From IMG/VR virus record IMGVR_UViG_3300015360_001544, positions 1-25,761 of that record: a DNA stretch of 25,761 nucleotides; one strand, given 5' to 3'. The DNA is from a virus. A program made the position numbers and the translations under genes. Positions 6,193 to 25,761 of the stretch are shown piece by piece; within the stretch, counting starts at the first letter, position 1; every line of letters begins with the position of its first letter. The notes under the pieces are model-generated. The model had not been told where the DNA came from, made no database searches, and was given only the letters and a program-made list of their open reading frames with translations.

Positions 6193-7185
6193 ATGTTTAA
6201 CGAAAAACAATTGCAGATTTTCACTGGGTCTATGCTCGGCGACGGGACAATAGTCAAGAATTGGCAGAACGGTGGATTGTGTAGATTTCAGATTGGTCAA
6301 TCAAAATTGGATCATAAAGAAAATGACAAAATATCATATATTGATTTCTTTATGAAAAACTTTGATGATTTTTCTGTTGAATTTAGAGAATCTTCTGTGT
6401 TAGCAAACAAAATGTTTCCATCAGCAGGATATGCAGAAGACAAGATGTTTGACAGATACGTGTTCTACACACACAATTTAAGATTTTGGGAGAAACTTGA
6501 ATCAAAGTGGTATGTGCCACGACTCGACCATCCAAGATTCAAGAGACGTAAGATAGTTCCTACAGACATCCGATTGACTCCGCTAACCTTGTGCGTTTGG
6601 CACATGGATGATGGATCGAACAATCAGACAGACGCTAACATTGAATTGAACACACAGAGTTTTACAGTTGATGAAATTGAGTTCCTCATCGAGAGACTCA
6701 AGAAAGATTTAGGAATAGACAGTCACAAAAAGACTGGCGGCAAAGAAGGACAATACAAAATTTACATCGGGCGAGGATCATACTTTGAGTTTATTGAGAT
6801 GATCAAGCCGCACGTTGAATGGGATTGTTTCAAGTACAAGATTGACACAAGCGGGTACACAAAGCAACCACACAGGGGAGAACTGCATTCTGGATCTATT
6901 CTTACAGAATTGGATGTAAGAGAAATATTTACATGCAGGAACAACGGGATGAAACAAAAAGACATAGCAGAGAAAATGGGTGTCAGCAACATCTCTGCGA
7001 TTTTGTCTGGAGAACAGTGGTCTCACTTGGGGCTAAGTATGCCAAAGGTCAAGAAGCCACGTTTGTCTAAAGAAGTCAAGCAGCAGATTACAGATTTACA
7101 AACTCAAGGATGTTCTCAGAATCAGATTGCCGAGAGACTAAATATCAATCAGAGCACAGTATCGAGAGTCCTTAGAGGAGCCTAA
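6193..7185 (+). CDS. LAGLIDADG homing endonuclease with C-terminal helix-turn-helix domains
   Basis: This 330-residue protein has two LAGLIDADG-type helices: LQIFTGSMLGDG (residues 7-18) and LTLCVWHMDDG (131-141), each ending in the acidic residues that bind metal in this nuclease family. Two helix-turn-helix-like segments follow, at ~250-272 (MKQKDIAEKMGVSNISAIL) and ~306-328 (SQNQIAERLNINQSTVSRVL), likely adding DNA contacts. The start ATG has a strong SD (AAGGAGG, 6181-6187). The gene stands free between two tail genes and is not inside an intron or intein that I can see. It is a clear paralogue of the endonuclease at 11409. Its stop overlaps the next start (TAATG), and its last codons contain the next gene's SD. 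Confidence 0.9.
   Translation: MFNEKQLQIFTGSMLGDGTIVKNWQNGGLCRFQIGQSKLDHKENDKISYIDFFMKNFDDFSVEFRESSVLANKMFPSAGYAEDKMFDRYVFYTHNLRFWEKLESKWYVPRLDHPRFKRRKIVPTDIRLTPLTLCVWHMDDGSNNQTDANIELNTQSFTVDEIEFLIERLKKDLGIDSHKKTGGKEGQYKIYIGRGSYFEFIEMIKPHVEWDCFKYKIDTSGYTKQPHRGELHSGSILTELDVREIFTCRNNGMKQKDIAEKMGVSNISAILSGEQWSHLGLSMPKVKKPRLSKEVKQQITDLQTQGCSQNQIAERLNINQSTVSRVLRGA
7174..7180 (+). promoter_or_regulatory. SD for the tail gene inside the endonuclease 3' end
   Basis: AGAGGAG lies within the codons for the last residues of the homing endonuclease (LRGA), four bases before the ATG at 7185. The downstream virion gene therefore takes its ribosome site from the mobile element, or the element inserted so as to recreate one. 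Confidence 0.6.
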
Positions 7186-11368: not shown

Positions 11369-11408
11369 ATTTCAAACTTTATTTGTGATATTGTCACATA
11401 GATATCTT

Positions 11409-12293
11409 ATGCAAAGATTTACACAATCAGAAATTTTATCACTCCCAAAAATAAACAATACTCAAATACAAGTAATTGAAGGATCTTTACTTGGAGATGG
11501 ATCGCTTACTGGTTGCAATAAATATCCAAATAGAAATTGGTATTTTAGAAAGTGTCAAAGTAAATTTTCTCACAGCGGATGTGATAAAATTGATTACATG
11601 CAATGGCACATAAATGAACTAAATCCATATTCAAAAACAAACATATATGAAGGTAAGTACAAATCAAAGCGAATATGTGGCAACAAAAACATTACAAAAG
11701 AATCACAATATTATTGCATTAGAACATGTTCAAACGAGCAACTTACAAACTTGGCTAAAAAATGGTATGTCAAGATTTCAGATAAGCTCACTAAAATTGT
11801 CCCTAATGATTTAATATTAACGCCACTTATGCTGTCTGTCTGGTATTGTGATGATGGTTGTAATGTCCCAACAACAAGAACAATCAATCTATGCACTGAC
11901 AGTTTTACTATAAATGAAGTAGATTATTTAGTTGAATCAATGAAAAGAGATCTTGGAATTGAATCATATCTGTATCTTAATTTCAACAAAAAACCAAATA
12001 TAAGAATTAGAACACATGAGTATATTAATTTTATTGATATTGTAAAAAGCAATTTCAATTGGAACTGTTTTAATTACAAAATTGACACCAGCAAATACAT
12101 TCCACCAAAACCAAAAGCATGTGGGGAAAAATCGGGAAATTCTAAAATGACAGAAGAAAAGGTGATACAATTGTTAAAAGAAAAATCAGAAGGAGAAACA
12201 TATAAAAATCTGTCAAAAAAATTTAACATATCAGAGTCAACTGTATGGCATATTATAAGTAGAAAAACTTGGAAACATGTGGTGATAACATGA
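11409..12293 (+). CDS. LAGLIDADG homing endonuclease 2 with C-terminal helix-turn-helix
   Basis: This 294-residue protein has the first LAGLIDADG-like helix IQVIEGSLLGDG (residues 20-31) and the second LTPLMLSVWYCDDG (137-150). Matching segments with the 6193 endonuclease (SFTINEVDYLVESMKRDLGI against SFTVDEIEFLIERLKKDLGI, and NCFNYKIDTSKY against DCFKYKIDTSGY) show the two are paralogues. One C-terminal helix-turn-helix-like segment remains (YKNLSKKFNISESTVW, ~265-280). Its codons are visibly more AT-rich than neighbouring genes, suggesting recent arrival. A GTG at 11385 is in frame, and no good SD supports either start, so the 5' end is uncertain. It sits between two PKD genes and its stop overlaps the next start as ATGA. 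Confidence 0.88.
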   Translation: MQRFTQSEILSLPKINNTQIQVIEGSLLGDGSLTGCNKYPNRNWYFRKCQSKFSHSGCDKIDYMQWHINELNPYSKTNIYEGKYKSKRICGNKNITKESQYYCIRTCSNEQLTNLAKKWYVKISDKLTKIVPNDLILTPLMLSVWYCDDGCNVPTTRTINLCTDSFTINEVDYLVESMKRDLGIESYLYLNFNKKPNIRIRTHEYINFIDIVKSNFNWNCFNYKIDTSKYIPPKPKACGEKSGNSKMTEEKVIQLLKEKSEGETYKNLSKKFNISESTVWHIISRKTWKHVVIT

Positions 12294-22867: not shown

Positions 22868-22902
22868 GGGCACAGTTCTTCGGAACTGTGCCCTTTTCTT
22901 TT
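22868..22902 (+). terminator. Rho-independent terminator
   Basis: A perfect 11-bp stem (GGGCACAGTTC with GAACTGTGCCC) encloses a TTCG tetraloop and is followed by TTTTCTTTT. It lies 30 bases after the stop of the abundant virion protein and just before the GT9 gene, so it should insulate strong expression of the former. Confidence 0.95.
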
Positions 22903-22921
22903 GTACCCACTCTATTATTGG

Positions 22922-23899
22922 ATGCCAGTCATAAGATCCAAAACTCCAGTGAGAAGTCGCATCGAGTATAATCGGCCAAATCAAATCAGACCGACCATGA
23001 CCATACGTGACTTTTACAACAAACGCAACAAAATACTCATACAGAGAAATTGTGGCGGCTTGGGAGATATTCTCATGCACAGAATGATGTTTGAGGATTT
23101 TAAGAATCTATTGCCGAATGCAGAAATTCACTTTGCTTGTCCTTTAGCATACCACGAGGTAGTTTCAGATCATCCATTCATTGACAAGTTGATTGATTCC
23201 AACGTCGCAAACATGCACGACTACATCATTCACTACAACACTAGCACGGCCTGCGGCAGATGGGAAATGGCCATGGCTCCGATGTCTGGCAAGCATAGAA
23301 GCGATATTTGGGCCAATCATTGTGGCGTTGAATTGAAATCACACAATATGCACTTTCGATTTACAGACGACGAAATGAAAGAAGCTTGTGACATCATCGA
23401 AACGCATAGAGACAGAGAAGGCAAAATAGTCTTACTCGCTCCTATCTCTGCTATGCACAATAAAAACATGTCTGATGAACTGATGGTAGATGTCGCCAGA
23501 GGAATACAAGAACGAGGTTTTTGTGTCATTGGAGTTCATGGATCACCAATCTATGGACTTCTCAAAAACGATATTCCGAGTATTCACGGCATCAGGGCCA
23601 GAAAACTGTTGTCTGTCATAAACAAAGCAGATTACATGGTTAGCGTTGACACGGCTCATTTCCATGCTGCGGGAGGCATGGGGAAGCCAGTCGTTGGGTT
23701 GTTCACATTCGTCAATGGCAAGACATACGCAATGCACTATCCAAAAGTGGAATTGGTGCAAGGTCCATGTCCACTACTATATTCTGGATGCTACGATTGG
23801 GGCAAATGCCCGAAAATAAAAGACGGCACAAGAGTCCCTTGTTGTTCAGGAATTGCCTCTGCGTCTGTGCTTTCTGCATTTGATAGGTTGAGGGCTTAA
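22922..23899 (+). CDS. GT9-family glycosyltransferase (heptosyltransferase-like)
   Basis: This 325-residue protein from the ATG at 22922 has NCGGLGDILMHRMMFEDFK (43-61), the GT9 'gG-x-GD' start, then VLLAPISAMHNKNMS (170-184), VIGVHGSP (202-209) and YMVSVDTAHFHAAGGMGKPVVGLF (238-261), the nucleotide-sugar donor site of heptosyltransferase-like enzymes. The C terminus has five cysteines in CPLLYSGC...C...CC (283-308), seen in many GT9 relatives. An ATG at 22997 (MTIRDFYN) is the alternative start; a TATAAT at 22967-22972 would suit it, while neither start has a clear SD. The gene lies directly behind a terminator, so it needs read-through or its own promoter. The acceptor is unknown: host surface glycan or virion. 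Confidence 0.85.
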   Translation: MPVIRSKTPVRSRIEYNRPNQIRPTMTIRDFYNKRNKILIQRNCGGLGDILMHRMMFEDFKNLLPNAEIHFACPLAYHEVVSDHPFIDKLIDSNVANMHDYIIHYNTSTACGRWEMAMAPMSGKHRSDIWANHCGVELKSHNMHFRFTDDEMKEACDIIETHRDREGKIVLLAPISAMHNKNMSDELMVDVARGIQERGFCVIGVHGSPIYGLLKNDIPSIHGIRARKLLSVINKADYMVSVDTAHFHAAGGMGKPVVGLFTFVNGKTYAMHYPKVELVQGPCPLLYSGCYDWGKCPKIKDGTRVPCCSGIASASVLSAFDRLRA

Positions 23900-25098: not shown

Positions 25099-25761
25099 AT
25101 GTCAATTGGATTTGATGCTGGAACATACAACTTGGTCTGCTGCAAGAGAAATGCAGACGGAAACTTCGCCTACAAGCGAGAGGTCAATGCTTTTCTTGAG
25201 ATGGAACTACAGAACGACTTCGTGTTCAATATGATGAAGAAATCTGGAGTGCCGCTGATTCTTCGAGAGGACGCTAACGTCGCTTATGCTCTAGGCGAAG
25301 CTGCGATCAACATGGCTTACACCATGAGAAACATGGACCTGAAACGTCCAATGAAAGACGGTTGCGTTAACCCACATGAGCGTGACGCCTTCCAGATCAT
25401 GAACATCATGATTCACAGTCTTCTGGAAGAGATTAAAGGTGATGGAGAGATTCTGTGCTATTCCGTGCCAGCCAACGCCATCAATGAAAATACAGATGCC
25501 GATTACCACAGAAAAATTCTTGATGCTATCTTCAAGGCTTTCAAGAGCGAAAGCGGATGGAAAGTTGACGCTAGGCCGATCAACGAAGCCATGGCTCTAG
25601 TTTATGCAGAACTTGCAGACAAGATGTTTACTGGCATCGGCGTTTCGTGTTTGTGTCCAAGAACAAAAATATACACAGACAAGGGAATTGTAGAAATACA
25701 AGATGTCAAAATTGGGGATAAAGTAATCACACATATGGGCAAATGGAGTGAAATCAGCAAT
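25099..25761 (+). CDS. Actin-like ATPase (ParM/Alp type), 5' part, intein-interrupted
   Basis: Reading from the ATG at 25099 (GAAGAGG SD at 25086-25092) gives 221 codons to the window end. The first residues, SIGFDAGTYNLV, hold the phosphate-1 loop of the actin/Hsp70 ATPase fold (D6-x-G8-T9). YSVPANAIN near 125-133 and INEAMALVYAEL (~161-172) correspond to the strand-helix elements of ParM/Hsp70-like subdomains that precede phosphate-2. At TGIGVS (178-183), where the phosphate-2 loop should follow, the frame enters an intein at codon 184. Such proteins polymerise to move or position DNA or other cargo; here that is inferred from fold. The mature protein depends on splicing, and the remaining part lies beyond the window. 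Confidence 0.8.
   Translation, partial: MSIGFDAGTYNLVCCKRNADGNFAYKREVNAFLEMELQNDFVFNMMKKSGVPLILREDANVAYALGEAAINMAYTMRNMDLKRPMKDGCVNPHERDAFQIMNIMIHSLLEEIKGDGEILCYSVPANAINENTDADYHRKILDAIFKAFKSESGWKVDARPINEAMALVYAELADKMFTGIGVSCLCPRTKIYTDKGIVEIQDVKIGDKVITHMGKWSEISN
25648..25761 (+). other. Intein, N-terminal splicing region (partial)
   Basis: Starting at codon TGT 25648 the protein reads CLCPRTKIYTDKG, then IVEIQDVKIGDKVITH. This is the block A pattern of inteins: Cys1, Leu, then T-x-I, a glycine turn, and I-x-D-x-x-x-G-D-x-V (Hint domain). The DNA changes to A-rich, AT-ending codons at the same point. Upstream residues TGIGVS belong to the actin-like extein. Blocks B, F and G and any endonuclease lie outside the window, so splicing competence is not shown. 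Confidence 0.85.

Follow-up and report, generated by a model that had tools for sequence, protein, structure and literature searches.

A putative LAGLIDADG homing intein in the phosphate-2 loop of a phage volactin-family actin-like ATPase

Introduction

Why would the reading frame of a phage actin-like ATPase turn, within its nucleotide-binding site, into a sequence resembling the start of an intein? This question is raised by the last gene of the window, the 25,761-nucleotide stretch of viral DNA analysed here (IMG/VR record IMGVR_UViG_3300015360_001544). The window is the entire virus record (25761 b), and an open reading frame on its + strand (25099-25761) continues without a stop to the record end, which falls 114 bases inside the presumed intein. 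A sequence-only reading had interpreted this gene as an actin-like ATPase interrupted in its phosphate-2 loop by an intein, and had suggested that splicing might gate filament formation, for example by redox through the Cys-Leu-Cys start. Approximately 70% of bacterial and archaeal inteins are found in ATP-binding proteins, and phage terminase inteins also occur at the P-loop (PMC5050341).

Results

Residues 1-184 of the truncated frame matched the Pfam Volactin family (PF25216, E 3e-31), while residues 184-219 gave a weak match to Hint_2 (E 0.001) that is below the cut-off of that profile. The first 183 residues (25099..25647, + strand) form the N-extein of a volactin-family actin-like ATPase, with a phosphate-1 loop, GFDAGTY, of the D-x-G-T type (25108..25128, +) in which D6, G8 and T9 are invariant across 20 intein-free homologues. 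The switch point lies where it had been described, at Ser183/Cys184 (25645-25650), and is followed by the N-terminal 38 residues of the intein, beginning CLCPRTKIYT and truncated by the contig end (25648..25761, +). The window alone displays just block A and these 38 residues, and the remaining intein is known from relatives. An attempt to extend the window via its intein DNA, using a 42-base probe, matched the L002 and L003 contigs only. No group I intron or tRNA was found in the window.

The actin-like identity of the host held up in both sequence and model. An intein-free orthologue, L006, matched the Volactin profile over its full length (E 2e-67), and its structural model folds as actin (pLDDT 75), with MreB as the best match in the PDB, alongside MamK. 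Since searching PDB sequences with the profile of the actin-like protein returned zero matches, the fold search and a comparison with MreB were used instead. In a profile alignment with E. coli MreB, S183-C184-G-A-G paired with the D-I-G-G-G of the phosphate-2 motif DIGGGTT, which locates the junction after the D and before the I and supports the phosphate-2 placement. By this alignment, the predicted intein lies directly behind the first residue of the phosphate-2 hairpin and so splits it (S|CGAG in the phage protein, D|IGGG in MreB). The motif reads S-[CFW]-G-A-G in phage volactins, with the glycines conserved and the Asp of D-x-G-x-G changed to Ser; wherever the motif can be recognised in a phage homologue, this first residue (window 25645-25647) is Ser.

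Close relatives of the actin-like protein are encoded at 40 viral loci, the majority of which are intein-free, encode about 333-341 aa, and cross the site uninterrupted as S-[C/F/A]-GAG or GGG. Intein-bearing precursors are ~710 aa long and consist of a volactin-family N-extein, an intein of 367-372 aa, and then a Cys with the resumed extein. In five of them (L002, L004, L005, L010 and L015), the 367-372 aa between S and C terminate in IHN or IKN and the actin-like extein resumes as CGAGMVN. The L002 contig (24.9 kb) carries the window's 114 intein bases at 113/114, followed by the complete intein and C-extein. The sequence-only reading had pointed downstream of the record end for a C-terminal splicing end, an endonuclease and a resumed extein. 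These were looked for in the full-length relatives, which contain blocks F and G ending ...IHN|C and a LAGLIDADG domain, then CGAGMVN. The CLCPRTKI stretch was absent from ~130 distinct intein-free homologues, all contiguous across the site (...GVS|CGAGMVN... type). The identity of the insert as an intein is thus supported by full-length relatives as well as by intein-free alleles.

Searches with these inteins recovered more carriers, every one at the identical site. The exteins of L049, L051-L053 and L058 are ~30-38% identical to the window's group and are still Volactin by profile, and additional carriers were L161, from the extein search, and L068, on a contig binned with a Neisseriaceae MAG. 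In cellular genomes, the same intein was found in L068 only, with other matches there being 18-31% identical. The L068 contig (RXKI01000042.1, 77 kb, binned as a Neisseriaceae bacterium) encodes an intein-bearing phage volactin and a phage-type downstream gene. As both the host gene and its downstream neighbour are phage-like, L068 is probably a misbinned phage contig.

The full inteins consist of a split HINT domain and a LAGLIDADG_3 domain in two stretches. Cys1, the block A nucleophile, occurs in every full intein as well as in the window. Seven positions are invariant across 13 inteins: Cys1, block-B His69, Asp142, Asp239, Asp353, His360 and Asn371, with Asp142 and Asp239 corresponding to the two LAGLIDADG catalytic aspartates, and the invariant set also covering the block-F His and the terminal Asn. 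In block B, the usual Thr of TxxH is replaced by Val and His69 is kept. All full-length relatives end in IHN|C except L015, which has Lys for the penultimate His (IKN|C); phage inteins without the penultimate His are already known (PMC5050341). The intein model (pLDDT 83.5) had as its best fold matches the homing-endonuclease inteins TliVMA and PI-SceI. The dN/dS of the intein was ~0.1 where estimable, indicating that its protein sequence is under purifying selection, and intein GC was below extein GC in every case. We classify it as a class 1 intein of ordinary type, with putative splicing activity and a LAGLIDADG endonuclease that has both motifs. A natural 163-aa mini-intein without the endonuclease occupies the same site in L058 (L058:926-1414) and shares 87% identity with the splicing portions of the L161 full intein. 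It is a candidate tool for engineering and may represent the decay stage of a homing cycle.

Comparison of the window with L003 and L002 revealed very different divergence in intein and extein. Between the window and L003, the inteins are identical at 114/114 bases while the exteins are 79% identical; 95 of the 183 extein codons differ, compared to 0/38 intein codons (p 4e-11). Between the window and L002, the corresponding values are 91/181 extein codons and 1/38 intein codons. Mismatch positions relative to L003 and L002 show that the identity block reaches 9 bases past the junction on its 5' side, covering GGCGTTTCG (Gly-Val-Ser; 25639..25647, +), where the intein-free L006 has GGAGTAAGC; the Ser of this flank is S183, which opens phosphate-2 in the MreB alignment. 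More broadly, the 16 inteins placed on a tree built from 102 exteins fell on 16 separate tips, with a scatter like that of shuffled labels and with carrier exteins as little as 30-35% identical, and the intein and extein trees conflict. For example, the L045 intein groups with those of L002, L004, L005 and L043 (100/100), but its extein does not, and L015 and L048 have exteins that are 89% identical and inteins that are 50% identical. We interpret the window intein as the product of recent homing between distantly related phages, with a very short co-converted flank on the N side.

The residue after the phosphate-2 Ser varies among distinct intein-free proteins (C 40, F 47, W 39, Y 2, A 2) and is Cys in every intein carrier. 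A nucleophile at +1 is a requirement of the splicing chemistry, and co-conversion can supply the Cys. Among independent tree pairs, the intein and the +1 Cys pointed in the same direction in ~10/15 and never in opposite directions (median p ~0.002). Synonymous codon identity beside the junction was 0.41 in intein/intein-free pairs; where both members were intein-free, it was 0.57 if their +1 residues agreed and 0.42 if they differed, a test weakened by the shared ancestry of the pairs and by the choice of nearest neighbours on the far flank. The low value in unequal-+1 pairs hints at earlier intein footprints or at other local conversion. A broader proposal is that repeated invasion and precise loss rewrote the ATP-phosphate loop of the whole phage actin family, such that both the C/F/W/Y/A variation at +1 and the disturbed synonymous codons would be footprints of homing. 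We consider this doubtful, although if true, it would mean that a selfish element steers active-site residues.

Baseplate wedge genes close to the window start indicate a contractile-tailed phage. Relatives of the window sit on contigs of up to 532 kb, and an annotated phage collection contained two related records, from uncultured phages of 595 and 485 kb. The tail region of the window also has two free-standing homing endonuclease genes that combine LAGLIDADG_2 with a helix-turn-helix (6193-7185 and 11385-12293), and no Rfam intron was found near either. A glycosyltransferase family 9 (heptosyltransferase-like) gene lies upstream of the actin-like gene (window 22901-23899; L004:4753-5760). 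Directly downstream is a small conserved gene (L004:8361-8858, L011:7022-7513, and equivalents elsewhere) with the motif DLGxAAYxLMH, encoding ~72 aa, or ~160 aa when it is a tandem duplicate. This gene was present at 53 of 68 distinct loci in the window's clade versus 0 of 60 in the other clade. It matched no convincing named family, and the neighbours gave no function for the actin-like gene. The small protein is a possible partner or adaptor of the phage actin-like protein, for which a partition or cytomotive role is plausible given its membership of the MreB-like volactin family.

Discussion

Collectively, these findings make it very probable, at the level of sequence, that the window holds the 5' part of a class 1 LAGLIDADG mobile intein, and that its host is a large tailed phage's actin-like ATPase of the volactin family. 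In our working model, ~370 residues split the phosphate-2 hairpin, and the precursor would be without normal nucleotide binding. Cys1 would then attack, Cys+1 would accept the N-extein, and the terminal Asn would cyclise, joining the exteins to restore ...GVSCGAGMVN.... The endonuclease is predicted to cut intein-free alleles at the conserved phosphate-2 codons, with repair copying the intein and a few flanking bases. These would include the +1 codon, so that even Phe or Trp alleles would acquire Cys. The endonuclease may decay afterwards, as in the L058 mini-intein.

As the intein breaks off at the record end, an assembly artefact was also considered, in which the assembler joined the start of an intein to the actin-like gene of a phage that is intein-free at this position. 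The window and L003 stop at the same base, 123 bases into their common sequence, which is typical of a repeat break in an assembly graph, and L007 stops 4 bases before the junction. However, the window and L003 both continue in frame from unique extein sequence into the intein, at the position already known from other carriers. The junction recurs in L002, where the two exteins are present, and inteins occupy the site in at least 15 more phages. A chimera is therefore extremely improbable. An identical intein common to several phages would itself break assemblies, which could account for the shared end base of the window and L003 and for the end of L007.

A different question is why the intein has been retained. 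Regulated splicing, through redox, temperature or slow turnover of the precursor, could determine when functional actin-like filaments appear in the course of an infection. In favour of this idea, a split ATP loop should leave the precursor inactive, and conditional splicing is described for other inteins, such as that of mycobacterial DnaB. The intein is also under purifying selection, but simple splicing competence explains this equally. Most relatives, including the closest, manage without the intein, and its scattered distribution and active spread agree with selfish homing. The redox trigger suggested by the sequence-only reading is unsupported, as the proposed residue, Cys3, is not conserved, with Val or Ile in its place in roughly half of the copies. 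Retention for regulation thus appears very unlikely, and the most likely explanation is a selfish homing intein sheltered in an ATP-site motif that the phage cannot lose.

The preference of inteins for ATP-binding motifs, a rule drawn from P-loop ATPases, is extended by this locus to the actin fold, and the locus provides a natural on/off insertion within a phage gene of cytoskeletal type. Its record of homing is also unusually clear, encompassing host genes that can be only ~1/3 identical, a stage that has lost the endonuclease, and a switch at the obligatory +1 position. In the open-access literature searched, with subscription journals mostly outside its scope, no intein was described in an actin-type protein (MreB, ParM or volactin). 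As far as this literature shows, both the host family and the insertion site are new for inteins. Within the annotated phage collection, the closest inteins are ~24% identical and reside in portal, terminase and reductase genes.

VMA inteins likewise interrupt an ATP-binding site. The VMA-type class 1 inteins TliVMA (7qsu) and PI-SceI (1vde) resemble the phage volactin intein in having a split HINT domain with an inserted two-motif LAGLIDADG endonuclease, but they are only ~14% identical to it over the structural match and differ in insertion motif. Their host is a P-loop ATPase, whereas the host here is an actin-fold ATPase. The inteins of phage terminase large subunits and other ATPases (PMC5050341) are similarly phage-borne and sporadic, lie in an ATP-binding motif, and show conflicting intein and extein trees. 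Unlike the volactin intein, they interrupt packaging ATPases, at the Walker A, Walker B or C motifs. On the host side, the closest known system is Haloferax volcanii volactin (PMC10869688; PF25216), described in a paper in which phages and viruses are unmentioned. The phage proteins belong to the same family by full-length profile match and share its actin fold close to MreB. They differ from the Haloferax protein in being phage-encoded and, in some cases, intein-bearing, and from MreB in opening phosphate-2 with Ser rather than Asp.
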